Shown piece after piece: positions 6,288-26,753 of a stretch of 64,000 nucleotides of DNA. The first letter of the stretch is position 1; each line of letters starts with the position of its first letter. The stretch lies in the NCBI GenBank assembly GCA_036500765.1, contig DASYBM010000002.1:124001-188000 (forward strand), given 5' to 3'. The DNA comes from Candidatus Sulfotelmatobacter sp. GTDB lineage: Bacteria; Acidobacteriota; Terriglobia; Terriglobales; Acidobacteriaceae. Position numbers and translations under genes: made by a program. A model generated the notes under the pieces. The model did no database searches, was not told the DNA's origin, and worked only from the letters and a program-made list of their open reading frames with translations.

Positions 6288-9200
6288 CTAGGGCAGCAAG
6301 CCGTAAACATCAAGTTCGGTCGCGGTCCCGACGTACACCTTTCCGTTGGCCACGGTGGGGACGGCAAACTTCACTGCCAAGCCGGCTTGATCGCGGGTTG
6401 CGTTTTGGCCTGTGTTGTAAAGTTCCCGCGCAAGGTTCGTAGCGTCGTAGGCATGCAGAACGGCATTGGTGCTTTTTACCGTCGCCAACACCCACAGCAC
6501 TCCGTTGGTTGACCCATTGGCCGAGATGACCGGTGTCGCGCCCGGATAAGCATAGAGGAGTGACGACTTTGACGTGGGCGAGGTCGACAGCTGCGCGTTG
6601 AAGAGCAAGTAAGACTTGGCATAATCCCCGACGCCACAGAAATACACGTTGTTCTGCCAATACGCGGGCATACTATGCGCCGTGGGGACTGTTCCGGCCG
6701 GCAAGACTTGCAGCACCTGATTGCCGTTCGCGTTGTACTGGCCGAGATTGGTGCGATCGATAAGATACACCATTCCCTGTTTGCCCGCGGCGACCAGCAT
6801 TTGGGTCGGCGGCGTGGGTTGGTCCGGAATCAAAAGAGGCCCGCCCGATCCCAGGTCGAGATCCGAGCTGTTGAGCACACTGAAATTCGAGGGCAGAAAA
6901 TAATCTGCAACCGATAAATCGCCGGCGTTGGCCTTCACCAGAGCTTCGCCGTAATCGCTGCCGTCGGCATTCACGTCGGTCGTCCCGTTGCCGATCGCGA
7001 AATAAATATATCCATTCTCGTCGACGGCCGGGGCGCCACCGCTCTGCCAGATTCCGGCTTGCAGGCCGTTGGGAGTGGAGACGTAGGTCGCTGTCTGCTG
7101 CAAGGTGCTTTCCGAATAGCCCATCAGCCAGCCGTGGTAAGGCAGAATGTCGCAGTGGGAACCAAACCCAATGTAAACGACGCCGTTATCCAGGAACAAG
7201 CCGGCGCGCTGGTTTTGCATCTGGGGATTGAACTTCACGGTTCCGTTGTTGGAGTTGGACGAACCTTGAATGGCCACCGGGCTGCCGGCCCGTTCCATCC
7301 CGGAGGTAATGTCAATCGCATGCAGATATTGATAATACGTAGTCACTCCGCCGTTGACGATCTTGCTGCGGGCGACTACGAACAATGTATTGGTTGCCGG
7401 ATCGATGACGGGGGTCCCAGTGATGCCGATCAGCGGCGAAATGTTCGAGCAGCCCCCGATGTCCGCCGCACTCAGCACCTGGCCGCCGGCAGGAATAAGG
7501 CTCACTTGCCACAGCGGTGCGGTCGTACTTCCATCGGCGTCGAAGGCATAGAGGCTGTCATTTTCAGTGGCCGCATACACCACGTTGCGCACGCCCGCGC
7601 CGGCGACGTTGACGCCTTGCACATAGAGCGGCTCGGCGTAAAGCTGACCGTCAACGGGATAACTGACGAGCTTGCCGAATTGGGTTGAGTTCACATTGCC
7701 AGTGGTGAGAACGGTTTCCGATAGATTTTGACCTGTACGCCCGTTGTCATTGTGATAGACCAGAGTGCCTGCAAAGCTGGTGATCACGACGGGCACCGTT
7801 GCACTCTGCGTCGTTTTTGCGGTGCTGGTGGCCGTGACCTGGTGTGAGCCCGCCATGGCCGGTCCCGTGTAAAGACCGGAAGTCGAAATCGTCCCAGTCG
7901 TAGTGTTGCCGCCGGCAATTCCGTCCACGGCCCACGTAACATTCGAACTGGCCACGCCGCTGATGTAGGCCTGGAACTGCGCGCTCTGTCCGGCAGTCAT
8001 AGAGGCCTGCACGGGCGTAATCGAAACCGTGGTGGTCGGCGAGGAGCCCGTGCCAGTCAGGGATACAGTTTGCACCGTCGTAGGATCGGTATCGCTGAAG
8101 GTAATATAGCCGGCGCGAGTGCCGGTCGCCGACGGAGAGAACGTGACGTGAACCGTGCAACTCGCCGCCGCGGACAGGGACGAGCCGCAGTTGTTGGTCT
8201 CAGCATAATCGCCGCTGGCGACGATGCCGATCACGCTCAAAGAGGAAGCCCCGCTGTTGGTCAACGTGATCGCTTGAGCTGCGCTCGTAGTCAGCACGTT
8301 CTGCGAAGCGAAGGTCAGAGTCGTGGGCGAGATCGACGCTAAGGGTCCGCCGGTCGTTCCAGTTCCATTCAGCGTGATGGACTGGGGAGTTCCAGCCACA
8401 TTGTCTGAGACCGAGATTGTCGCTGTCCGCGCGCCGGCAACCGTGGGGCTGAATACTGCGTTGATATTGCAATTCCCTCCGGCAGGCACCGTAAGACCGC
8501 AATTGTTCGACTGGGAAAAGTCGCCGGAATTCGCGCCCATGATCGTCACGCTCGAAATGGTCAAGGTGGCATTTCCGGTATTGAACAACGTCACTCCACC
8601 GGTGGCGCTGGAGGACCCAACCGCGGTGTTGGCAAATGCGATCGTGGACGAACTGAAGCTCACTACGGGCGCGGTTCCCACGCCGGTAAGGGGCGCGGTG
8701 TGCGGGCTGCCGGCGGCATTATCGATGACCGACACGCTGGCCTGGCGCGTGCCTACTGCGCTGGGGACAAAAGTCACGCTGATGGCACAACTCGTTCCCT
8801 CAGCCAGTGAGGGCCCGCAGTTGTTGGTCTGCGAGAAATCTGTGCTATTGGTTCCCGTGATGCCGATTGAAGTAATCGTCAAAGCAGCGTTGCCCGAATT
8901 GCTGAACGTGAGCACGCTTGCGGAACTGGTCGTGCCCACGGCTCGGTTGGCAAACGTGAGGCTGCTGGGGGAAAGGCCGACAACCGGTGCGATCCCTGTT
9001 CCCGTCAGAGCCGTGCTCTGAGGGCTGCCACTGGCGCTATCGCTGACCGAGATGCTGGCCGTGCGCAGGCCTGAGGCAGTGGGCGTGAAGGTCGCAGTAA
9101 TGGAGCAAAACGCCCCCGCCGCGAGCGAGGTGCCGCAGCTATTTGTCTGGGCGAAATCGCCGCTGTTGCTTCCGGTAATACTCATGCCAGTAATGGTCAG

Positions 9201-12200
9201 CGTCGCCGTGCCCGAATTGGTCAGCGTAACGGCAGTCGACGGACTGGTTGTGCCAACCGTCTGATCGGCAAAAGTAACGCCGGCGGGCGAGAATACGACC
9301 GCAGCCGCGATGCCCGTCCCCGTGAGCGGCACAGTCTGAACCGTTGAGTTGCTGTCAGCAATGGTCACGACTCCCGGGATCGAGCCGGCAGAAGTTGGAG
9401 TAAATGTGACGCTGATCGTGCACGACCTTCCGGCAGCGACACTGGCGCCACAACTATTCGTCTCAGAATAATTGGCGGAAGCTGCGATGCTTGAAATGCC
9501 GAGTGCCGCCCCGCTGTTGTTCGTAAGCGTGATGGCCTTGGCCGCACTGCTTGTATTGACCGCTTGGTTGGCGAAGGCCACACCAGTCGGTGAAAACGCG
9601 ATTGTCTGAGTAACTCCCGTGCCCGTTAGATTCTCGATCTGCGGACTGTTGGTCGCGTCGTCGGTCACTACAACCGTGCCGTGGCGGCTGCCGGTGACCG
9701 TGGGCGTGAAGAATACAGTGATGATGCAATTTGCTCCCGCAGGTACCGAAGTGCCGCAAGTGTTGGTCTCGGTGTAATTCCCAGTGGCCGTCAGGCTGCT
9801 GATGGTAAGCGGGCCGCTGCCGGTATTGGTGAGCGTAATTGTTTTCGGCGCGCTGGTGGAATCAAGGGCCTGGCTGCCAAAGGTGAGCGAGATGGGCGAC
9901 AAACTGACCGTCGGCGCGCCCGCGCCAGTCCCCGACAAACTGACCGTCTGCGAACCAGCGGCGGCGCTGTCCGCGATTGTGATGGTTCCAGTCTGCGTGC
10001 CGGTTGAGGTGGGCGTGAAACTGACGGTAATGCTGCACGCGGCGCCGGCGGCAACCGACGATCCGCAGTTATTCGTCTGCGCGTACTCGGCGCTGGCGGT
10101 GATCGAAGTAACCGCCAGCGCCTCGCTCCCCAGGTTGGTCAGCGTAACCAGCTGGGCCGCGCTGGTCGTGTTCACGGTCTGAGTCGCAAACGTCAAGCTT
10201 GCCGGCGAGAGAACTACTGAAGCCGCGATGCCGGCTCCGAGCAGAGAGACGGTTTGCGGGCTGCCTGGGGCGCTATCGGTAATCGTGACGTTGGCCGAGT
10301 CGGAGCCTGCGACGGTCGGGATAAACGTCACGTTGATGGTGCAATTCGCTCCCGCCGCAAGCGTGCTCGGACTCGTAGGACAATTGTTGGTCTGGCTGAA
10401 TTGCGAGCTGTTCACCCCACCGACGGCAATACTGCCGATGGCCAGAGTTGCGCTTCCTGAGTTCGTCACTACCACCGATTGGGAAGCACTTGAACTGCCC
10501 GCGTTTTCTGCGCCGAACGACAGACTAGAGTTGGAAAGCGTGACGGCCGGCGCCTGCAACAATATCGAGACAGTATCGTCATCGGCATTTGAAACCACCA
10601 GGTCGGCTCTGCCATCGCCGTTAAAATCGCCCACGGCCATCGCCAGACTTTCGTCGCCGATACTGAATGTTAAGGCTCCTGCGGTATTGAATGTGCCGTC
10701 GCCATTGCCTGGCAGAATGGAAACTGTATTGTCGCCGGAGTTGACGACCGCCACATCGATTTGTCCGTTGCCATAAAAGTCGCCCGCGCTAATGGCGAAG
10801 GGCAGAGTCCCCACCGCATAAGGAACCCCGGTGGCAAACGTTCCCGCGCCGCTGTTCATCAGCACGGCAATGTTGTTGCCCCCATTGTTCGCGGCTATCA
10901 GGTCAAGCTTTCCATCCCCGTTCAGATCGGCGGCAACCAATCCGTCGGGATCGGCGGGGGTCGCGTAATAGGCTGTGCTTATAAACGTGCCATCCCCTTT
11001 GCCAAAGAGCACGGCGATATTGTTGGATCCAGAATCGGCTACAGCGAGATCAAGGTTTCCGTCAGCGTTGAAGTCGCCGCTGACCACCGCGATCGGACCG
11101 GCTCCCACCGAGTAACTCACGGGAGTTTGAAATGTGCCGTTGCCCAGGCCCAGATAAATGGAGACCGTATCGTCGGCGTTATTGGCCTCGACCACGTCCA
11201 GAAAACCGTCGGCGTTGAAGTCTCCGACCGCGACCGCCATGGGTTCGGTACCGGTGGCGTAGTCCACGTGGCTGCCGAATGTGCCGTCGCCGTTGCCCAG
11301 GAGAATCGAAATCGTATACGCCGCCCGATTGGCGGTGACCAGATCAAGTTTGCCGTCGCCATTAAAGTCCCCGACAGCGATAGCGATGGGATCGAAGCCG
11401 GTGGCGTAGATGACTGGCGCGGCGAATGTGCCGTCGCCATTGCCCAGAAGAATCGAAATCGTATTGTCAGCCCGGTTCACCACGGCGACATCGGGTTTGC
11501 CGTCGCGATTGAAGTCGGCAATCACAATGCCCCGCGGATCGGTACCCACGCCAAGATCGGTTCTTCCAAGCGAAACCGTTGCCGTCGGATTCGTAATCTG
11601 GAATGTCTGCGGATTGGAAGTCCCGCCTCCGGGAGTGGGATTGGTGACGACGACTTGCGCTGTACCCGCCGCAACCAGACTGGCAGACGGAACCGCGGCG
11701 CTCAACTGCGTTGAACTGACGAAGGTCGTCACCAGGCCACTGCCGTTCCACAGCACCGATGACGCGGAGCCGAAACCGGTGCCGTGCAAGGTCAGCGTAG
11801 AGCCCGATCCTCCCGGAACCGCCGTCATAGGGCTTAGCGGTTGCTGAACCGAAGGGATGGGCAATGCCGCACTCACCCCCGTACCACTCAGTGTGGCCGG
11901 TATGGGCGCGACCGAAGATGCGAAGGTTACGTTGACTGTGGCTGTGAAATTTCCCAGGGCAGCCGGGGTGAAGCTAATGTTGATCGTGCAGTTTCCGCCG
12001 GCGGTGATTGTTCCGCAGGCATTGCTCTGGGAAAAATCTGCCGAACTCGCGCCCTGGATGGTCACTGCCGAAACCTGCGCGCTGTAAGAGCCGAGGTTCG
12101 AAAGGGTCAGGACCTGGGATGAACTGGTTGTTCCGATCGCCTGCCCGGCGAAAGTCAGCGTGCCGGGAGAGAAACTGGCAACCGTCCCCGCGCCCGTGAG

Positions 12201-12623
12201 GGCAACGGTTTGCGGGCTTCCAGTCGCATTGTCGGTCAGAGAGATCGTCCCCGTGACCATGCCGTTCGCAACCGGAGTGAAGGTCACAGAGATCGTACAA
12301 CTCGCTCCCGCGGCGATGGTGGCGGTACAGTTATTGGTCTCAGCAAAATGTAAACTCGGTTTAATACTGGAAATATTAAGGGTGGCGGTTCCAGTGTTCG
12401 TCAGAGTAATGTTCTGAGCCGGGCTGGTGGTATTGCGAAGTTGCGTGCCGAAGGTAAGGCTGGTTGGTGACAGCGTAACTGCCGGACTCCCCGCGAGCGC
12501 GGGCACACAATATACGGGAATAACACTGAGTGCTGCGCACACACCAACGAGCGCGCGCAACGGTGCAGCACACCGACGCAAGCGGTTGGGCCAGACGCAG
12601 CCTAGCCTTGGAATACCAGGCAC
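6288..12623 (-). CDS. giant secreted ASH/FG-GAP/PQQ-propeller protein
   Basis: 2111-residue exported protein with no assigned function. Order seen: signal peptide ending near ALA-GS (1-45); two choice-of-anchor-D (ASH) domains (about 48-250); an IPT/TIG domain (about 256-345); seven FG-GAP/VCBS repeats of about 48 residues, each with an Asp-rich DFNxDGxxD-type calcium loop (about 359-692), which suits one seven-bladed propeller; eight more ASH domains of about 105 residues (about 693-1528), most with an NNCG...C cysteine pair and ending GTG; one bacterial Ig-like domain (about 1530-1616); and a PQQ-like beta-propeller (about 1617-2111). No transmembrane anchor, sorting signal or enzymatic motif is visible. 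The architecture is typical of very large acidobacterial surface or secreted proteins, perhaps for adhesion or binding. It stands alone and ends 178 bp before the chosen start of the TolC-like gene on the same strand. Confidence 0.9.
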   Translation of the reverse strand: MPGIPRLGCVWPNRLRRCAAPLRALVGVCAALSVIPVYCVPALAGSPAVTLSPTSLTFGTQLRNTTSPAQNITLTNTGTATLNISSIKPSLHFAETNNCTATIAAGASCTISVTFTPVANGMVTGTISLTDNATGSPQTVALTGAGTVASFSPGTLTFAGQAIGTTSSSQVLTLSNLGSYSAQVSAVTIQGASSADFSQSNACGTITAGGNCTINISFTPAALGNFTATVNVTFASSVAPIPATLSGTGVSAALPIPSVQQPLSPMTAVPGGSGSTLTLHGTGFGSASSVLWNGSGLVTTFVSSTQLSAAVPSASLVAAGTAQVVVTNPTPGGGTSNPQTFQITNPTATVSLGRTDLGVGTDPRGIVIADFNRDGKPDVAVVNRADNTISILLGNGDGTFAAPVIYATGFDPIAIAVGDFNGDGKLDLVTANRAAYTISILLGNGDGTFGSHVDYATGTEPMAVAVGDFNADGFLDVVEANNADDTVSIYLGLGNGTFQTPVSYSVGAGPIAVVSGDFNADGNLDLAVADSGSNNIAVLFGKGDGTFISTAYYATPADPDGLVAADLNGDGKLDLIAANNGGNNIAVLMNSGAGTFATGVPYAVGTLPFAISAGDFYGNGQIDVAVVNSGDNTVSILPGNGDGTFNTAGALTFSIGDESLAMAVGDFNGDGRADLVVSNADDDTVSILLQAPAVTLSNSSLSFGAENAGSSSASQSVVVTNSGSATLAIGSIAVGGVNSSQFSQTNNCPTSPSTLAAGANCTINVTFIPTVAGSDSANVTITDSAPGSPQTVSLLGAGIAASVVLSPASLTFATQTVNTTSAAQLVTLTNLGSEALAVTSITASAEYAQTNNCGSSVAAGAACSITVSFTPTSTGTQTGTITIADSAAAGSQTVSLSGTGAGAPTVSLSPISLTFGSQALDSTSAPKTITLTNTGSGPLTISSLTATGNYTETNTCGTSVPAGANCIITVFFTPTVTGSRHGTVVVTDDATNSPQIENLTGTGVTQTIAFSPTGVAFANQAVNTSSAAKAITLTNNSGAALGISSIAASANYSETNSCGASVAAGRSCTISVTFTPTSAGSIPGVVTIADSNSTVQTVPLTGTGIAAAVVFSPAGVTFADQTVGTTSPSTAVTLTNSGTATLTITGMSITGSNSGDFAQTNSCGTSLAAGAFCSITATFTPTASGLRTASISVSDSASGSPQSTALTGTGIAPVVGLSPSSLTFANRAVGTTSSASVLTFSNSGNAALTITSIGITGTNSTDFSQTNNCGPSLAEGTSCAISVTFVPSAVGTRQASVSVIDNAAGSPHTAPLTGVGTAPVVSFSSSTIAFANTAVGSSSATGGVTLFNTGNATLTISSVTIMGANSGDFSQSNNCGLTVPAGGNCNINAVFSPTVAGARTATISVSDNVAGTPQSITLNGTGTTGGPLASISPTTLTFASQNVLTTSAAQAITLTNSGASSLSVIGIVASGDYAETNNCGSSLSAAASCTVHVTFSPSATGTRAGYITFSDTDPTTVQTVSLTGTGSSPTTTVSITPVQASMTAGQSAQFQAYISGVASSNVTWAVDGIAGGNTTTGTISTSGLYTGPAMAGSHQVTATSTAKTTQSATVPVVITSFAGTLVYHNDNGRTGQNLSETVLTTGNVNSTQFGKLVSYPVDGQLYAEPLYVQGVNVAGAGVRNVVYAATENDSLYAFDADGSTTAPLWQVSLIPAGGQVLSAADIGGCSNISPLIGITGTPVIDPATNTLFVVARSKIVNGGVTTYYQYLHAIDITSGMERAGSPVAIQGSSNSNNGTVKFNPQMQNQRAGLFLDNGVVYIGFGSHCDILPYHGWLMGYSESTLQQTATYVSTPNGLQAGIWQSGGAPAVDENGYIYFAIGNGTTDVNADGSDYGEALVKANAGDLSVADYFLPSNFSVLNSSDLDLGSGGPLLIPDQPTPPTQMLVAAGKQGMVYLIDRTNLGQYNANGNQVLQVLPAGTVPTAHSMPAYWQNNVYFCGVGDYAKSYLLFNAQLSTSPTSKSSLLYAYPGATPVISANGSTNGVLWVLATVKSTNAVLHAYDATNLARELYNTGQNATRDQAGLAVKFAVPTVANGKVYVGTATELDVYGLLP

Positions 12624-13351: not shown

Positions 13352-13978
13352 GTGCTAAACTTTGTGACACTTCACAACGTGCGGGGCAAGTTTTTGCAAT
13401 TCCAGTCTTTTGATGAAGCCTATCTCAGCCGCTTGCGGTCGGGTGACTACCGCACGCAGGAGCACTTTTCCGCCTATTTCAGCGCGCTCATCAAAATCAA
13501 GTTAGGTTCCAGGCTCAACGCGCCCGAAGCCATCGAAGATGTGCGCCAGGAGACATTCGCCCGGTTTTTTGTGGCTTTACGCGACGGCAAGATTCTGCAA
13601 CCCGACCGCCTGGGCGCTTTCGTAAATTCCATTTGTAACAACGTCCTGCTGGAGCACTATCGGTCCTCGACTCGCAGCACTTCGCTGGACGAGGATGAAG
13701 AGAAGAATTTTCCGGCCCTGAACGTCGACTTCGTGGGCGCCCTCAGCGCCAAAGAACGAGAAAAGAAAGTCCGCGAAATCCTGGAGAAACTGTCAGAACG
13801 CGACCGCCGCCTGTTGCGCGAAGTCTTCCTCGAAGAGCGAGACAAGGATCAAGTGTGCCGCGACTTCGGCGTCGATCGCGAATATTTACGCGTGCTGTTA
13901 CACCGTGCCAAGCAAGCTTTCAAGTCATCGTATCTGAAGCATTCGGGAGAGAATCCCCCAGATTTTGCTCCAGCTTAG
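13352..13978 (+). CDS. RNA polymerase sigma-70 family (ECF-like) factor
   Basis: Sigma factor of about 208 aa. Region 2 is recognisable in the helix run around EDVRQETFARFFVALRDG, with LGAFVNSICNNVLLEHYRSS as region 2.4-like; region 4 is the C-terminal helix-turn-helix (KLSERDRRLLREVF ... VCRDFGVDREYLRVLLHRAK). The reading frame is open back to 13103 but the extra N-terminus is unlike a sigma factor, so an internal GTG is preferred: 13352, 13364 and 13379 are all in frame and none has a clear ribosome-binding site. The next gene, an anti-sigma-like membrane protein, begins 55 bp downstream. This pairing, and the CHAT protease further on, suggest a stimulus-controlled sigma module. Confidence 0.85.
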   Translation: MLNFVTLHNVRGKFLQFQSFDEAYLSRLRSGDYRTQEHFSAYFSALIKIKLGSRLNAPEAIEDVRQETFARFFVALRDGKILQPDRLGAFVNSICNNVLLEHYRSSTRSTSLDEDEEKNFPALNVDFVGALSAKEREKKVREILEKLSERDRRLLREVFLEERDKDQVCRDFGVDREYLRVLLHRAKQAFKSSYLKHSGENPPDFAPA

Positions 13979-14033
13979 GAATACGCAGACCAGAAGCGGC
14001 CAGGCGCCTAACTTTTTACGAGGGGGAACGGCC

Positions 14034-14723
14034 ATGGACCACACAGACGTGGTTCGAGACAAAACGACGGAACGATATCTGCTCAACGAACTTTCTCCCG
14101 ACATTCGGGATGAATTTGAAGAGCACTACTTCGACTGCCCGGAATGCGCGCAGGATGTGAGCGCGGCGGCTCAGTTTGTGAAGCATAGCAAGAGCGTCCT
14201 GGCGGAAAAGACCGAGACTGTTTCTCTCCCGACCACGGCTGATCGGGGAGTGGCGCGGGGACCGTGGTCCTTCTGGTTCCGGCCCGCATTTGCCGCTCCG
14301 GCTCTCGCCCTGCTGTTAGCCATCGTCGGTTATCAGAACTTCGTGACGTACCCGAGGTTGCGGTCAGAGCTCAGGCAGCCTCAGATTTTGCCGGCGGTTT
14401 CAGTCAACCTGGGAACTTACGGCGCGCGTGAGACTTCTGTACCGGAGGGCAAAGGTCTGCTTCTATTCGTGCGAATCCCGCCGGACCCCATTTTTGCGCG
14501 CTACACGGGCGAGTTATATAATCCCGCGGGAAAGCCGGAGGGCTCGTTCACGATCGACCCGGCAGCCGGTCAAGATCAGTGGCCGGTGACGGTTCCAGCC
14601 GTCTCTCGCGAAGCCGGAACCTACACCCTGGCAGTGCACGGCGTCACCGCGACCGGCGAGACCAAAGACCTGGGCAGTACGTCCTTCGAATTACAAATTC
14701 GTGAAACACAAAATTCTAAATGA
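14034..14723 (+). CDS. zinc-finger (zf-HC2) membrane anti-sigma-like protein
   Basis: 229-aa protein, start ATG preceded by an AGGGGG ribosome-binding site. The N-terminal cytoplasmic part holds the zinc-binding anti-sigma pattern H31-x3-C35-x2-C38. A single membrane helix follows at about residues 80-103 (FAAPALALLLAIVGYQN), then a C-terminal exported domain of about 125 residues (beta-rich by eye) of unknown family. It lies directly behind the sigma gene, as expected for a sigma/anti-sigma pair; it would bind the sigma factor at the membrane and release it on a signal. The signal and any cleavage site cannot be read from the sequence. Confidence 0.82.
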   Translation: MDHTDVVRDKTTERYLLNELSPDIRDEFEEHYFDCPECAQDVSAAAQFVKHSKSVLAEKTETVSLPTTADRGVARGPWSFWFRPAFAAPALALLLAIVGYQNFVTYPRLRSELRQPQILPAVSVNLGTYGARETSVPEGKGLLLFVRIPPDPIFARYTGELYNPAGKPEGSFTIDPAAGQDQWPVTVPAVSREAGTYTLAVHGVTATGETKDLGSTSFELQIRETQNSK

Positions 14724-14754
14724 AAGATGAGCTCTGACCGAGCGGAGGTACACG

Positions 14755-15666
14755 ATGGCCACTATGACAGAAACACCCAACACCACCAGCACCACCACGC
14801 CCTCGCACGAGTATCACGCTGAGGCGCACGTGCTCAGCGGCGAGCTGCAACGCCCCATCGAACAGAAAATCGAACGTCAGGCCCCGGCCAAATTAATCGG
14901 CCGCAGAGGCGGTCATTTCACGCGTTCTCTGCAAGAATCCAGCATCGAAGGTCTGGTTTCCTTTGCCAAAGGCGAGACTCGCGTCTCCGGATCGCGCAGC
15001 CTGAAAAATAACGGCTGGGTCACGCTCTCCACCTCGATTCTGGAACGCCTCAACCTGTTCGAAGTGATTACCATTGACCGCCTGGTCTCGCAGGTCTCCA
15101 CCGATCACGCTTACAAAGATGGCCACATTCCGCATGTCACCTTTCTCGGCACGCAGTTTACGAACTTCCGCGTGAGCGGCTTTCCGGTCGAACTTACCCT
15201 CGATCTCGGCATCTGCGGCGACATCCCCGCCGGAGGCCAGACGTATCTCCAGGACCGCGCATTCCTGGCGCGGGCGGCAGCGCAGACCCAGGCCATTGCG
15301 AATGCGACCGGCCTTCCCAAAGAGATCAAGGATGACTACGATAAGAAGCTCGCCCACATCAACGGGCTCATGCGCACGAGCGATTCGGTCGACACAAGCG
15401 CCCGCGCTCCCATCACATGTTCCCTGATTCAGAGCATCGGCCCGATTCCCATCCCCGGGGTGCAGATCTTCGGGCACATCCTGGTGATTCCGGAATTTGG
15501 CTCCGTTGCCCTGGGCGAAGTCGAAGTGGGCGAAAAACTGTACGAAGGCGAGACCCGTCCGAGCCCCTACTTCGAAGTCACCGGCATCAAGAGCAAGATG
15601 GGCTGCCTGGCCGAGGGAACCACGAACGCCGGAACCGCCACTGCCAACGGCGCTCACAAACCCTAG
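14755..15666 (+). CDS. unrecognised 303-aa protein of the sigma/CHAT module
   Basis: 303 aa, ATG start with a strong GGAGG site 5-6 bases upstream. I do not recognise the family. No signal peptide or membrane segment is visible. The N-terminus is Thr/Ser-rich (residues 1-25), then comes a polar, probably beta-rich body (FTRSLQESSIEGLVSFAKGE, HVTFLGTQFTNFRVSGFPVE). A charged helix near 190-205 (IKDDYDKKLAHINGL) and a Gly/Pro stretch QSIGPIPIPGVQIFGH stand out, and the tail is Ala/Thr-rich. It lies 31 bp after the anti-sigma-like gene and directly abuts the TPR-CHAT gene. A role as substrate, partner or target of that protease is inferred from position only. Confidence 0.8.
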   Translation: MATMTETPNTTSTTTPSHEYHAEAHVLSGELQRPIEQKIERQAPAKLIGRRGGHFTRSLQESSIEGLVSFAKGETRVSGSRSLKNNGWVTLSTSILERLNLFEVITIDRLVSQVSTDHAYKDGHIPHVTFLGTQFTNFRVSGFPVELTLDLGICGDIPAGGQTYLQDRAFLARAAAQTQAIANATGLPKEIKDDYDKKLAHINGLMRTSDSVDTSARAPITCSLIQSIGPIPIPGVQIFGHILVIPEFGSVALGEVEVGEKLYEGETRPSPYFEVTGIKSKMGCLAEGTTNAGTATANGAHKP

Positions 15667-15674
15667 GGTTTACT

Positions 15675-18194
15675 CTGCTCCTGGCTGCGCTTGCGAGCAC
15701 GCTGTCGTGTGCTCGTAGAGATGAGTCGCCGCAAGCCGCGTTCGAAAACGCGAATCAGGCGTTCATTCACGGCGAACTGCAGGAGACCAAGAGCGAGGCG
15801 AAAAGAAGATACGAAGAGCTTCGAGATTCCAGCCCCCTTTGGGCCTGGAAATTTAAGATCCTTGAAGCCAAGGCGGCCTTGTGGCAAGGCCTTTTCGAAG
15901 AAGCGCTCACGGACCTCAAGTCAGATCCGCAGCCCAGCCGGGCGGACATGGCTATTCCCGTGCTCACAGTTCGCGGCGTTGCCCACACGCATCTCCGAGA
16001 ATACCCGGAAGCCGAACAAGCCCTGAAGGAAGCCACCGAACTGTGCGGCGCTCACCTCGACTCCGGATGTGGAGAAGTTCTCCAGGCACGCGGCCTGCTG
16101 GCAAGCGAGCAAGGCGATTCCATTTCGGCGGAAGAGCTATACAAGCGAACTCTTGCCTTCGCTCGCGGCCACGACGATCACCTCCTGGAGTCCACTGCTC
16201 TCCTCAACTTGGGTGCTGAATTACTCGCGGAAGGCCGCTTCGATGAGGCATTCGATCAGTCGGAGGCCTCATATCGGGCTGCAAAATCGATAGACGCCCG
16301 AGTCGTCGAACCCATTGCCCAAGGCAACACAGGTTGGTCCTCTTACCGCTTGGGAGATTCGGACAAAGCTCTTGAAATATTTCTCGCGGCCGAGCGGCGC
16401 GCCAGCGACCTGCAAGACTACGTAGACCAGGGAATCTGGCTCACCGACGCCGGCTACGTTTACATGGATAAGCGCAACTTCCCGCTTGCTGAACAAGTGT
16501 TTCAGCGAGCGCTGCTATTGGAGAAGCAGGTCGAGAGCAAAGAAAACATTTATAACGCTCTGCGGGTCTTGGCGCGTCTCTCCGTCCAAACTGGCAACCT
16601 CGATAATGCAAGCGCTTACGCCGAGCAAGCTCTAACCGTCGCGCGCGAAAGCCATAACCACGTCGACGAACTTTATCCCATGCTGGTTCAGGGACAGATC
16701 GCAGCCCATCGAGGCGACGCCGTAAAAGCGCGACAGATTCTGGAAACCGTCGAGCGCGATCCACTCTCCCCCGTATTTCTGAAGTGGGAGGCCCAGCACT
16801 CGCTGGCGCGTCTCTACGAAGAGGAAAAGCAGACAGATGCGGCAGATCGCGAATACCGCAGTGCGCTGGCCACATTCGAAGCCGCTCGCGCTTCCGTGCA
16901 GCGTGAGGACTTCCAGCTTTCGTTCCTGACCAACGCCGCCCGCATCTACGACGACTACGTACACTTTCTGGTAGCCCAAGGAAAAATCGACGAAGCCCTG
17001 CGCTGGGCCGATTACAGCCGCGCTCGAACTCTGGCGGAAGGACTGGGCCTGTTGTCGAAAAGCTCTCGTGCCGACATTCACGCCGCGCCTTCAGCCCTGA
17101 ATCCGCGCGAGATTTCCCGCAAAGCGAAGAGCACGCTGTTGTTTTACTGGCTGGGCGAGAAGCAGTCGTACCTGTGGACGATCACTCCGCAGAAGGCCAG
17201 CCTGTTCCCATTGCCGCCCGGCCCGGATGTCGATTCACTGGTTGAACGATATCGCAGAGCACTGGGCAGTCCGCAGGATGTTCTCGAATCCCAAAATGAA
17301 GAGGGGCGCGCGCTCTATCGCACCCTCATCGCCCCGGCGAAAGAGTTGTTAGCCAGCGACGCGAAAGTAATCATCATCCCCGACGGCAGCCTGAATAATC
17401 TGAACTTCGAAACGCTGGTCGTCGCCGAACCCCTGCCCCACTTCTGGATCGAAGACGCCGATGTTGCGAACGCCAGCTCACTGCGCGTACTGGCCGCATC
17501 TTTGTCGCGCTACGATGCGCGCGGCAAAGCTCAAGACCATGCCCGAGAGAATGTCCAAGTAAAGAAACGCCGGCTGCTCTTGATCGGCGACAGCGTCGCC
17601 CCCAGCCGGGAATATCCCGAACTGCCGCGCGCGGCGCAACAAATGGCCAACGTCGCGAAACATTTCCCATCTGCCCAGGAACAGGTTTATCGGCGGGACC
17701 AAGCAAACCCGGCGGCATATGCGGCCAGCGATCCCGGCAAGTTTTCTCACATCCATTTTGTCGCGCATGGCACTGCCAGCCGTCTCAGTCCGCTCGACTC
17801 CGCGATTGTGTTGTCCAAGATTGTGTTGTCGAAGGAAGATGCCGGCGACGACTCATTCAAACTTTATGCCCGCGACATTATTCGGCATCCCCTGCACGCC
17901 GATCTGGTGACCATCTCCGCATGTTACGGCGCGGGCGAGCGCGCCTACTCGGGCGAAGGCTTGGTCGGCCTGGCCTGGGCCTTTCTGCGAGCCGGGGCCC
18001 ACAACGTGATCGCCGGTCTCTGGGAAGTTACCGACGCGTCCACCGAACAATTGATGGATCGCTTCTACGACGAACTCGACAAGGGCGCCGCTCCCGATGC
18101 CGCCCTGCGCGCGGCGAAGCTTTCGCTGCTGCACGGCGGCCAATTCCGCAACCCTTTTTACTGGGCACCCTTTCAACTCTATACCGGCTCTTGA
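15675..18194 (+). CDS. TPR-CHAT caspase-like protease, probably exported
   Basis: About 839 aa from the proposed start. A hydrophobic segment (TLLLAALASTL) followed by Ser-Cys suggests a signal peptide, possibly of lipoprotein type although the lipobox is poor. Residues about 30-460 are tetratricopeptide repeats; residues about 485-839 are a CHAT (caspase HetF associated with TPRs) domain with an intact His698 (HFVAHG) and Cys750 (ISACYGAG) dyad and the usual C-terminal NPFYWAPFQLYTG. CHAT domains are cysteine peptidases of clan CD. No ATG, GTG or TTG lies in frame between 15420 and 15878: the choices are ATG 15417 (deep inside the previous gene), a CTG at 15675, or a TTG at 15879 that would delete the signal. 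The CTG is chosen tentatively. It probably forms one unit with the three genes before it. Confidence 0.85.
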   Translation: MLLAALASTLSCARRDESPQAAFENANQAFIHGELQETKSEAKRRYEELRDSSPLWAWKFKILEAKAALWQGLFEEALTDLKSDPQPSRADMAIPVLTVRGVAHTHLREYPEAEQALKEATELCGAHLDSGCGEVLQARGLLASEQGDSISAEELYKRTLAFARGHDDHLLESTALLNLGAELLAEGRFDEAFDQSEASYRAAKSIDARVVEPIAQGNTGWSSYRLGDSDKALEIFLAAERRASDLQDYVDQGIWLTDAGYVYMDKRNFPLAEQVFQRALLLEKQVESKENIYNALRVLARLSVQTGNLDNASAYAEQALTVARESHNHVDELYPMLVQGQIAAHRGDAVKARQILETVERDPLSPVFLKWEAQHSLARLYEEEKQTDAADREYRSALATFEAARASVQREDFQLSFLTNAARIYDDYVHFLVAQGKIDEALRWADYSRARTLAEGLGLLSKSSRADIHAAPSALNPREISRKAKSTLLFYWLGEKQSYLWTITPQKASLFPLPPGPDVDSLVERYRRALGSPQDVLESQNEEGRALYRTLIAPAKELLASDAKVIIIPDGSLNNLNFETLVVAEPLPHFWIEDADVANASSLRVLAASLSRYDARGKAQDHARENVQVKKRRLLLIGDSVAPSREYPELPRAAQQMANVAKHFPSAQEQVYRRDQANPAAYAASDPGKFSHIHFVAHGTASRLSPLDSAIVLSKIVLSKEDAGDDSFKLYARDIIRHPLHADLVTISACYGAGERAYSGEGLVGLAWAFLRAGAHNVIAGLWEVTDASTEQLMDRFYDELDKGAAPDAALRAAKLSLLHGGQFRNPFYWAPFQLYTGS

Positions 18195-22463: not shown

Positions 22464-23447
22464 TCAGCTCTCCATCGCCTTCAGGAAAATATCTTCCAGC
22501 GTGTCCCGCCGGAAATTCATGCGCCGGATGCGAACCTGCCGCTCCGCCGCTATACGAAAGATGTCGCGGGTCTCGACCCCCTCCGCCAGAACCATCTTCA
22601 TGCGGTTCGCCGTCACCGCGCATTCGCAGCCGAGTTTTTCAATCGCCTCGGTGAAATCGCCGTTCGCGCCGTAGGTTTCGAGCTCTAGAAATCGCTTGTT
22701 CGCGCGGCGCTCTTCATCCAGATTCGAGTAATGCGCGATCCGCCCCTGCTTCAGAATCAACACTTCATCGCAGGTGTCTTCCACATCGCGCAGCAAATGC
22801 GAGCACAACACGATCCGCATCTCTTTCCCATCGCGAATCTCGCGGATCATGCGAATCATGCGTTGCCGCGCCGAAGGATCCAGGCCGTTGGTCGGCTCAT
22901 CGAGAATCAACAGCTTCGGTCCATGCACAATCGCCTGCGCCAGCTTCGCCAGTTGCTTCATGCCCAGCGAATACGTTCCCAATTGCCGATAACGCGCCTC
23001 CGCCAGGCCAACATAGAACAGCGCCTCGTGCGCCCGTTCCAGAGCCATGTCTGCGGGCAAGCCCGAGAGTTCTCCCATCATCTGCACAAAAGAAACCGCG
23101 CTCATCTTCGAGATGAACGCGTCGTTCTCGGGCATGTAGCCCACCAGCCCGCGAATTTTCTGGATGTCGGTGGCGACGTCGTAGCCAAACACCCGAGCCG
23201 AGCCGGCGGAGGATTTGTAGAAGCCGAGAAGAGTATTGATCAGCGTCGATTTGCCCGCGCCATTCGGTCCCAGCAATCCAATCGAGCACCCGCGCAACGT
23301 GGTCGTAAGCCCGCGCAGGATCTCCCGATTTCCGAAACGAACCGAGAGACCCTGGAGTTCCACCAGCGGCGGAAGCGGAGCGGCGGGCGGCGCCGGCGCC
23401 AATTCGCGCTCGCCGTCTGCCGCCCCGCGTTGAACGGTTGTGCTCAC
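22464..23447 (-). CDS. ABC transporter ATP-binding protein
   Basis: 327-aa ATPase subunit. It has an N-terminal Pro/Ala-rich tail (1-25), Walker [11 protein letters not shown], signature YSLGMKQL, Walker [14 protein letters not shown] and H-loop CSHLLRD. Its GTG start overlaps the stop of the FecR-domain gene (GTGA), so it is coupled to it. With the next gene it makes the first of two ATPase/permease pairs in the operon; the two ATPases are clearly diverged from each other. Confidence 0.92.
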
Positions 23448-26164
23448 TCAGTTTGAAGTGCTGGGTGACTCGAATCTCCACCCACGAACATATCCCCGCC
23501 GATAAACATCTGCGGCAGGAACGGCCCCCGGTGGCCCATCGTCAAAAGCGTGCCCAGGTCAAACCCCATGAAGCCGGTGTTGCTCGCCACTGTAATCCGA
23601 TCGCTCTCGCCATAGGCGTAAATCAAGCCCGGCGCGGAGTTGGCCTTGAGCGCATCCACCGACGCCTGTTGCTGCCGGTTGAGCGCTCCACTGGATTTCA
23701 GTTGATCGGCCAGCGGACCCACGACCGGGCCGATGTTGTGATAAAAGATCCCCGAAAAATTCGTATAGCCATCGCTCGGCAACAGCGCCTGAAAGGTCGG
23801 CGAATGCGTCAGCGTATATCCTGCCGCGCGAGATTGAATCGCTCGCGACAGAGTAGCCGCATCGGGCGCGGCGATCAGATAGTTGTCGACGAAAGTGTAA
23901 TCGATTTCAGGATTCACCCTGCTGGTGCCGCTGATCACGTAGTAAGTCCTGGAGTTGACCTGCCGCTGCGTCAATTGCACAGCATGCCCCTGCGCGCCGG
24001 GCTCCCGATTGTAGCTGTCGACGAGCTTCGCGAGGGTCGACTGCAACGTTGCCGGATCGTAGACTTCGACGATCAGTTTCCACCGCGGCGTGGGCAGCAT
24101 CGGCCCGTCGAAGGCCATGGTAAATTCCCCGCCCAGCGGCGCGGCCAGGTCGTTCAGCACATTCACGCCCGTCTTCGATTCGAATTCGTTCAGGTGCTGC
24201 TGAAAGTTCACATCCCCGGCGCCGATCATCTTGAAGATTTCTTCCATGATGGTTTTCGGATTCTTGATGACCGCCGAGGTCACCATGCTGGCCTCGGGCG
24301 AAACGAATTCCAGCGATCCCATCGGCGCAGGCGCGGCCAGCCACGATGCCACGCCTTGCCGCTCCGCCGCAAACATCAGATCGGCGCGGCTCTCGGTCTT
24401 ACCGGCAACGTAGCGGTGTTCCATGGTCAGGTAGCGCACGTCGCCAATCCCCGGCGGCAGGGCATTGGCCGGCTTGTTATTCGCGCTGCCACTAGCTGGT
24501 ACGTTGTGCACGATAATTTGTTCCATGTCGGCGCAGAAAAGCCACTCTGCCCCTTGCTCGTAAGACCGCGCGATCTGCTGATAAAAGGGCGTGCCGGAAA
24601 ATGTACTCGGGCTCTGCTGCTGGGCCCGCGTCGCCGCCTGCTGTAGTTCCGTCAGATCGGGACTGGCGATCATCATATTGTCGCTCACATAAACCAGCAG
24701 CGGCCGCCCGGCGATCGGCGTCGCCGTCCACGGATTATGTACGGTCTGCAAGGCAGCTGGCGAAGAATTCGAACTCAATTTGCGATTCGCCTTTTGCAGG
24801 AAGCCCTCCAGTCCGCCCTGCTTCACCTTCGCCAGCACCACCGGAGCGCCGTATTCCGTTCCGTTTTTAGACACCGCAAATACAATCTCGTCGCCCAGAT
24901 AGCCGCTAAAAGTCTGCACCTGGTTCAGCACGTCCTGCAACTTCGGTCCGCTGCCTTTTTGCTGCTGCTTCCACCAATCGCGCAGTTCCGGGCTCTGTTG
25001 CAGCCGGTCCCGGAATAACTGGCTCGCCTCGGCCAAAGTATCGGCAAGATTGGGAATCGCCGCGTAAATCACGGTGTGATCCGGAACGTAGGGCAGAAGT
25101 TCGGAGCTGTAGCGTAATCCCGGCCCCGGAATCGCCGCAAACTGCTTCTGCAACACGGCAAAGTCGCCCAGCAGCGCCAAATATTTTGCGGAATCTTTGC
25201 TCCACGCGATGTCGTTTTGAATCGGAACTTTCGATACCGTGGAGTTCGAGGTCGCTTCCTCGCCGGCGCTCAGATCCGTCGTGCGATCGCCGTAGTCAAC
25301 GCGGACCACGCCTTCGATCACAGCCACGCGCGAGCCTTTGGTTCCATGATTCACGGAAAAAATAGTTCCCTTCACCGAAACCAGCCCGTCGTCGGTCGCG
25401 AGATACAACCGGCCCGACTTCTGCTTCGCCGCTTGCACGATCACCCTTCCGCCGTCCAGATGAATAGTGGTGCCCCGCCACTCCCGCGATACCGAAAGAT
25501 CGGAGCGTTCGCCCATCTCAAGCAAAGATCCATCGAGCAAGCGCACCACCGCCCGCGAGCCTTTTGCGGTGCGCACCTGGTCTCCATTTCGAATTTCATA
25601 ACCCGCCGGGATCAATCGCATCTCGGCGCCCGATCCCGTATAGAGCGCGCCGTCTACCGTTTGAACCGACGCGCGCACGACGTGCTGGCCGGGCAGCACT
25701 CCGAGGTTGAACGCGACGGTAGCGACTGCCACGGCGGCGACCGCGGCTGCGCTCAGCGCCCATCGCCAGGCCACCGAAGCCGATGCGCTTGGCCTTGAAC
25801 CGGCGCGCGAACGAATGCTCCTGGATTCCACTCGCAGAACCATTTGCGATTCGCCTGCCCGGGCGCGGTCGACTGCGTGACGGCACTCCACGCAGGCATG
25901 CACGTGATCCTCAAACAGCATCGTCCGCGCCGGAGCCAATTGCTTGCCCAGATATGCCGGGATGAGCGCCTGAAAATCCGCGCAGCCGCGCAAGGTGGAC
26001 GTTCGCGAGCCGATTTCCAAAGTGGGGGCCGACCCGGCAATCGACTTCCAGACCCGTTCGCCGGCCTGCGCGACTGCCTGGCCGTCGATCTGCTCACTTC
26101 GAATCTCCGAGATCATCCGGTCAAAGATCATGCGGTCGAACTTTTCATTCTTTTCATTCTTCAT
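23444..26164 (-). CDS. zf-HC2/FecR-domain membrane protein with large exported domain
   Basis: 906 aa from an ATG preceded by a good AGGAGG site; an upstream in-frame start at 26275 would run into the sigma gene and is rejected. A cytoplasmic zinc motif H87-x3-C91-x2-C94 of anti-sigma type is followed by one TM helix (about 133-155) and an exported FecR-type domain (about 185-295: [34 protein letters not shown]). Residues about 330-906 form a large region resembling DUF3352-type proteins (repeated [14 protein letters not shown]-like and TLSRAIQSR-like segments), a tentative match. Its position right after an ECF sigma gene suggests it is the sensor/anti-sigma; the FecR domain suggests surface signalling. 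The large C-terminus may be the sensing part. Confidence 0.85.
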
Positions 26165-26216
26165 GGCCTGCCTCCTGATTATGCGGCTGCTTCGCGAGCA
26201 TGCTTTGCGCCCGGTT

Positions 26217-26753
26217 TTATGCTTTAAGATATGCGCCCAATTCCTTGCGGAGTTGTTGTCTGCTGCGATGGACAATCACCGCCACGAACACCTGGGAAAT
26301 TCCAAGCATCCGCGCCACTTCCGGATTACTGAAGCCCTCGATAAATCGCAATACGAAAATCTCCGCCCAGCGCGGCTTGAGTTGAGCCATTGCTCGCCCC
26401 AGCGCCTGGCGCAACTCGCGAGAGTCGCGATGGGAGGACTCGGGCATGTCTGTAAGTTCTACGGTTCGGTCGCTCTGTCGCGACCGAATGACGTCAAGAG
26501 CCGCGTTGATGGCCGCGCGCCGTAAATAACTCTCTTCGTTTTCCAGGGCATCCGCTCCGGCCTCGCGCCGGAACAGCCGCAGAAACACGGTCTGCGATAC
26601 ATCCTCGGCATCCGCGGCATTGCCGGTAATCCGGTAGGCCGTGCGGAAAACCAAGGCGTGATGCGCCCGAAAGACCCGGTCGAATTCGTCCGGAATTACG
26701 ATTGCCGATTCCTCTGCCAATGCGCTTTGCAGGGTACGCCTCCCGTTGCTCAC
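26217..26753 (-). CDS. ECF RNA polymerase sigma factor
   Basis: 178 aa, GTG start. Region 2 spans about 22-90 (FDRVFRAHHALVFRTAYRITG, DAEDVSQTVFLRLFRRE) and region 4 about 120-175 (LKPRWAEIFVLRFIEGFSNPEVARMLGISQ, then a recognition helix). It heads an operon with the zf-HC2/FecR protein and two ABC pairs, all reading the same way with gaps of 52 bp or less. ECF factors usually activate their own operon; no promoter could be read with certainty in the 154 bp before the divergent kdgK gene. Confidence 0.9.
   Translation of the reverse strand: MSNGRRTLQSALAEESAIVIPDEFDRVFRAHHALVFRTAYRITGNAADAEDVSQTVFLRLFRREAGADALENEESYLRRAAINAALDVIRSRQSDRTVELTDMPESSHRDSRELRQALGRAMAQLKPRWAEIFVLRFIEGFSNPEVARMLGISQVFVAVIVHRSRQQLRKELGAYLKA

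Follow-up and report, generated by a model that had tools for sequence, protein, structure and literature searches.

A conserved sigma factor, anti-sigma factor and TPR-CHAT protease cassette of Acidobacteriota, and a protease gene that appears to start within its neighbour

Anti-sigma factors released by proteases are established, including one that is cut downstream of a protease combining tetratricopeptide repeats (TPRs) with a CHAT domain (PMC10028731). Such systems invite comparison with the four-gene cassette described here, which encodes, in this order, a sigma factor, a membrane anti-sigma factor, a 303-amino acid protein (P303) and a TPR-CHAT protease, and which lies in a 64,000-nucleotide stretch of a Candidatus Sulfotelmatobacter sp. 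genome (family Acidobacteriaceae; assembly GCA_036500765.1, contig DASYBM010000002.1, positions 124,001 to 188,000; hereafter, the window). The following precedents resemble it: (i) the CASP system (Csx29/Csx30/CASP-sigma) of type III-E clustered regularly interspaced short palindromic repeats (CRISPR) loci, where, as here, a TPR-CHAT protease is encoded together with a sigma factor of the extracytoplasmic function (ECF)-like type and its regulator, and control of the sigma factor by the protease is the working idea (PMC10028731); (ii) the Calp system (CalpL/CalpT/CalpS) in which, according to the accessible portions of the sources, a protease triggers a transcriptional response via an anti-sigma/sigma pair (PMC11417357, PMC12751052); (iii) DegS-RseA-sigmaE, with a membrane anti-sigma factor whose periplasmic domain can be reached by an envelope protease (discussed in PMC10028731); and (iv) the CRISPR-free neighbourhoods of caspases, ECF sigma factors and TPR proteins, which, in the accessible part of that work, link a caspase-superfamily protease to an ECF sigma factor (PMC8195603).

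The cassette differs from each of them. In contrast to CASP, it has neither Cas7-11 nor an array: in agreement with the preliminary description of this DNA, made from the letters alone, no RAMP/Cas7 gene is present in the whole genome and no CRISPR-like array occurs within the window. Moreover, an export signal is present on the cassette CHAT protein, a zf-HC2 membrane protein serves as the anti-sigma factor and P303 resembles the choice-of-anchor P proteins. The Calp protease is a Lon-SAVED protein activated by cyclic tetra-adenylate (cA4) in a type III CRISPR context and, in the portions of those papers available, comes with neither a CHAT domain nor a membrane anti-sigma factor. DegS is a PDZ serine protease, whereas the cassette encodes a cysteine CHAT protease with TPRs, and its mechanism can only be proposed. 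As for the caspase neighbourhoods, they include EACC2 and TRADD-N components, and a cassette of zf-HC2 protein, P303 and CHAT lipoprotein was not found in the accessible part of the source; in any case, since CRISPR-free caspase/ECF sigma linkages are described there, this kind of association has a precedent (PMC8195603). A search of the open-access literature returned no paper on the cassette or its gene overlap and, among known defence systems, PADLOC returned a TPR match only.

The four genes are consecutive on the forward strand of the window, as had been described. Their order is kept in 45 of 47 loci of the family, a set that includes the window and omits one duplicate (L042, identical to L005); longer flanks were read for the family genomes bearing P303 and for seven named Acidobacteriota loci from metagenome-assembled genomes. 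This recurrence is far beyond chance, and the gene-order comparison called for in the preliminary description thus finds the four genes as neighbours in dozens of species. Homologues of P303 occur in 43/150 genomes and 28/79 genera of the family, and the cassette extends to further families of the phylum (L107, L108 and L110-L112). For the four proteins, the matrices of sequence identity are correlated with one another (r 0.71-0.91), and the flank comparison shows no conserved genes outside the four beyond the closest relatives. Some loci are irregular: P303 is broken in L008; one gene is split in L046, L048 and L069; a contig end cuts L076, where neither a sigma nor an anti-sigma gene lies upstream; and, in L045, no CHAT gene adjoins P303, the sole CHAT gene of that genome, which belongs to the same clade, being on another contig. 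Two genomes of a single genus have the altered order P303-CHAT-anti-sigma (L119:771-4924 and L120:771-4867). The source genome encodes a single CHAT protein. Of the CHAT genes found elsewhere in the family, sixteen were sampled; all are distant from the cassette clade and have neither P303 nor a close sigma/anti-sigma pair, with weak anti-sigma-like matches near three of them. Judging from the sequences, the cassette is a stand-alone unit conserved in many Acidobacteriota, with a role in envelope signalling that is proposed tentatively, at somewhat less than an even chance. Separately, one of the distant CHAT genes overlaps a different sigma-factor-like gene (L126:3324-6763), which might represent a second sigma/CHAT arrangement in the family.

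The identity of the first three recognisable products is as follows (coordinates are collected in Table 1). The first gene does encode a sigma factor, as had been proposed: its product scores 50.0 bits against TIGR02937 (cut-off 42.9), which places it in the ECF-type sigma-70 superfamily, and it matches Pfam sigma regions 2 and 4, each below cut-off. The zf-HC2 membrane protein previously recognised in the second gene is likewise borne out by PF13490 (23.4 bits, cut-off 22.2) and by the transmembrane helix of its AlphaFold2 model (mean pLDDT 87.6), which together characterise it as a zf-HC2 anti-sigma factor; the domain is matched by 43/43 relatives, and His31, Cys35 and Cys38 are invariant. 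Its C-terminal domain, for which Foldseek gives immunoglobulin (Ig)-like matches, is predicted to be periplasmic. The fourth gene product contains TPRs and a CHAT domain (PF12770, 173.4 bits, cut-off 24) with a His/Cys dyad that is invariant in 41/41 relatives, and domain and dyad identify it as a CHAT protease. The dyad had rightly been reported as intact; its numbering as His698/Cys750, which implies a CTG start at 15675, gives way to His784/Cys836 when counted from the ATG at 15417.

The caveat in the preliminary description that the CHAT protein has a signal-like N-terminus proved right and is the point that matters most. A hydrophobic segment precedes the TPRs in all 44 CHAT proteins compared, with a lipobox-like Cys at its end in 39 (38 found by a script pattern and L055 by eye), and CHAT proteins of distant families begin with ordinary lipoprotein or Sec-type signals. 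P303 is the reverse case. It had been called unrecognised, which holds for Pfam, where no family matches, and fails beyond it: 39/44 P303 proteins of the family match NF040603, choice-of-anchor P (best E 2.2e-12). Given that the window protein scores 17.7 bits, under the curated cut-off of 27, and yet most of its relatives match, P303 is considered related to choice-of-anchor P and is not filed as a member. Choice-of-anchor P proteins are secreted and bear a signal peptide. A signal peptide is lacking in 44/44 P303 proteins, unlike in that family, and none is apparent in remote relatives. The P303 model is beta-rich (mean pLDDT 93.4); Foldseek returns no structure of the PDB at E <= 0.001 and the best VIA Z is 4.5, which does not prove a new fold, and a sequence profile search against the PDB gives no match. 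Regarding gasdermins, there is no PADLOC match for P303 and none among the Foldseek matches listed, an absence that is not proof. The NGxTxP-like tail of P303 (window 15649-15666) is conserved across the phylum. The P303 stop codon within the family is mostly TAG or TAA, and TGA is rare.

These predicted locations bear on what the protease might cut. The preliminary description had suggested that CHAT cleaves P303 and that P303 controls the sigma factor, in the way that Csx29 cleaves Csx30. P303 and CHAT are indeed the closest gene pair, interlocked by an overlap, they stay together where the rest of the cassette is reordered or absent (L113, L119 and L120), and the conserved C-terminal motif of P303 could be bound by a TPR domain. 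Nevertheless, the Csx29/Csx30 model needs protease and substrate in one compartment (PMC10028731), and the analogy does not fit because the predicted compartments differ: CHAT is predicted to be exported in 44/44 loci and P303 has a signal peptide in 0/44. Besides, the cassette, in contrast to CASP, already includes a dedicated zf-HC2 anti-sigma factor, and CHAT scores only 16.7 bits on the curated Csx29 model (NF041237, cut-off 300), so that membership of Csx29 was rejected. P303 as the substrate is, hence, an improbable explanation and is not favoured.

Since an export signal is predicted for CHAT, P303 has none and the C-terminal domain of the anti-sigma factor is predicted to be periplasmic, the anti-sigma factor is a better candidate target than P303. 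Control of sigma release by the CHAT protease, as first suggested, is a plausible proposal. The pathway would run as follows: (i) a lipid or membrane anchor would hold CHAT outside the cytoplasm, and the N-terminal extension that the overlap encodes would probably be lost together with the signal peptide; (ii) its TPRs might sense a ligand or partner; (iii) CHAT would then cleave the anti-sigma factor in its periplasmic Ig-like portion; and (iv) this cut would start regulated proteolysis and free the sigma factor in the manner of DegS/RseA. P303 would take part in the pathway from the cytoplasm and, as CHAT translation appears to start within P303, both proteins may be co-produced through their interlocked genes. 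That CHAT acts on the anti-sigma factor and so releases the sigma factor is, in our judgement, possible without being quite probable. The complete scheme, that is, a CRISPR-free system where a CHAT protease, exported and anchored by lipid, cuts a membrane anti-sigma factor to release the sigma factor, with a gene for a cytoplasmic choice-of-anchor-P-like protein interlocked through a conserved dual-frame overlap of 200-300 nucleotides, should be regarded as doubtful in its entirety.

Several results weigh against this scheme. Comparison of the anti-sigma factors revealed no conserved cleavage site, and the cassette contains no site-2 protease, a further difference from the DegS pathway. In one genome (G143, that of locus L045), the sigma factor, anti-sigma factor and P303 genes are still together and CHAT, with its own start (L123:4330-6981), has left the cassette. 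There is no clear Shine-Dalgarno sequence before the proposed internal start of CHAT, where the signal beats background in 14/25 loci. Finally, cleavage of the anti-sigma factor does not account for the role of P303. A conserved Arg-Gly in the periplasmic segment of the anti-sigma factor was considered as the cleavage site and dropped, as it is missing from the close relatives of the window.

Operons of ECF sigma factors often encode outputs beside the sigma/anti-sigma pair, a common arrangement that offers another explanation for the cassette: the pair would sense an envelope signal alone, with the predicted periplasmic domain of the anti-sigma factor as a possible direct sensor, and P303 and the exported CHAT protein would be effectors, for example, a surface-acting protease in a stress or conflict response. 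The patchy distribution of the cassette (43/150 genomes) and the ability of CHAT to leave it agree with this explanation. On the other side, the gene order is strict and involves only one CHAT clade, which points to a closer connection, and the upstream sequence also counts against an output role. A TA-rich -10-like hexamer occurs upstream of the sigma factor gene in 41/46 loci (shuffles, mean 10 and maximum 20), and the full TGnTAnnnT pattern is present in 21/46 (on average 2 in shuffles), usually some 41 nucleotides ahead of the sigma factor start. This putative promoter, the only conserved element upstream, resembles a vegetative extended -10 and not an ECF promoter and, in consequence, there is no evident sign that the sigma factor regulates its own operon. 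An output role for CHAT and P303 appears somewhat less likely than action of CHAT on the anti-sigma factor. The same element corrects the sigma factor start, which had been placed at a GTG (13352) that falls inside it; the start is the TTG at 13394, a position occupied by a start codon in 46/46 comparable loci (TTG in 38, GTG in 6 and ATG in 2).

The second main result concerns the start of the CHAT gene. Gaps of 0-55 base pairs had been described between the four genes, and the near-zero gap between P303 and CHAT does not stand: counted from the ATG at 15417, CHAT overlaps P303 by 250 nucleotides. In the window, the CHAT frame has no ATG, GTG or TTG between the P303 stop and the signal sequence, and several loci, the window included, have no in-frame start codon within 200 nucleotides of the latter. 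Relative to P303, CHAT is in the -1 frame in 38/46 loci (phases 38/4/4, one duplicate counted); in most of these, the hydrophobic segment begins at the P303 stop. The CHAT frame is open upstream for 75-160 codons in most loci, usually longer than in synonymous-codon shuffles. At a homologous site, the codon before a conserved P303 Cys ends in A, and this A, together with the TG that follows, forms an ATG in the CHAT frame. The A-ending codons used (Thr ACA, Glu GAA, Ile ATA, Leu CTA, Val GTA and Gln CAA) are mostly rare. They occupy the site in 26/31 loci against 5.3 expected from the codon usage of each (P about 1e-18, relatedness ignored) and, with one call per genus, in 13/18 against 3.1 expected (P 4e-8). 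An in-frame ATG is likewise present in the homologous stretch of each of six further family loci (L115-L118, L121 and L122). As controls, where CHAT has a separate start downstream, the site holds an ATG in L046 only; L119 and L120 have no such triplet; and L045, which has no adjoining CHAT gene, retains it, with a frame that is closed no more than 10 codons from the P303 stop. These observations suggest that CHAT translation begins at ATG 15417, within P303.

The lack of a nearby start and the prevalence of the -1 phase could also point to programmed -1 frameshifting near the P303 stop, yielding a single P303-CHAT polypeptide, or to a non-AUG start of CHAT. By eye, however, no conserved slippery sequence is present at the junction, the in-frame ATG is kept through rare codons, it is mostly absent where CHAT has a separate start and, in L045, the frame closes. 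These alternatives are, hence, very improbable, and frameshifting was set aside in view of the conserved internal ATG. A recurrent NTG codon at -61 was also rejected as the CHAT start: its first base follows a P303 Gly codon and it is not ATG, GTG or TTG in most loci.

Returning to the start within P303, the extension shows no amino-acid constraint: identity at 4-fold sites in the overlap and upstream of it is 0.559 vs 0.539 among close relatives, and 0.467 vs 0.458 in a wider set. Therefore, only the start codon and the open frame appear to be selected, as expected if the extension is discarded. The CHAT genes of other families have their start at the P303 stop or directly after it (e.g., the GTGA and ATGA overlaps of L108 and L110) and, consequently, the long overlap looks derived, the old start having been lost and an upstream ATG having taken over. 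Growth of overlaps by this route has been modelled (Fonseca et al., PMC3887535).

Table 1. Features of the cassette in the window (positions are those of the window).
Feature	Position	Strand	Basis
Extended -10-like element TGCTAAACT, putative promoter upstream of the operon	13353..13361	+	Motif conservation against shuffles
Sigma factor gene, 194 amino acids, TTG start	13394..13978	+	TIGR02937 match; conserved start position
zf-HC2 anti-sigma factor, 229 amino acids; one transmembrane helix (about residues 84-114); C-terminal Ig-like sandwich predicted periplasmic	14034..14723	+	PF13490, AlphaFold2, Foldseek
P303, 303 amino acids, beta-rich, no signal peptide, choice-of-anchor-P-like, NGxTxP-like C-terminus	14755..15666	+	Profile, model, alignment
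TPR-CHAT protease gene, 925 amino acids, proposed ATG start within P303	15417..18194	+	PF12770; conserved in-frame ATG, open -1 frame
P303/CHAT overlap, 250 nucleotides, different frames, encoding an Arg-rich extension	15417..15666	+	Start codon and frame conservation
Hydrophobic segment ending in Cys, lipoprotein-like export signal of CHAT	15663..15713	+	44/44 loci, Cys in 39
Catalytic His784 (of 925)	17766..17768	+	Invariant 41/41
Catalytic Cys836 (of 925)	17922..17924	+	Invariant 41/41

Two other genes of the window, both on the reverse strand, are worth recording. A secreted-looking repeat protein of 2111 amino acids (6288-12623) is divergent from the cassette and is not conserved beside it in relatives. 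Further away, a 943-amino acid protein (23444-26275) has a zinc-finger-like motif (HVHACVEC) and a transmembrane segment, and is possibly another anti-sigma-like protein.

A survey published in 2008 considered 715 co-directional prokaryotic overlaps longer than 60 base pairs and accepted none as real (Palleja et al., PMC2478687), which makes a long, conserved co-directional overlap notable. The one between P303 and CHAT has good support and runs counter to the view that such overlaps are annotation errors, and it shows how a correct gene start can be hidden. If it is true that CHAT acts on the anti-sigma factor, many soil Acidobacteriota would possess an envelope pathway run by a caspase-like, and not a DegS-type, protease, independently of CRISPR, and the cassette would place the origin of sigma factor control by TPR-CHAT proteases in a natural context.

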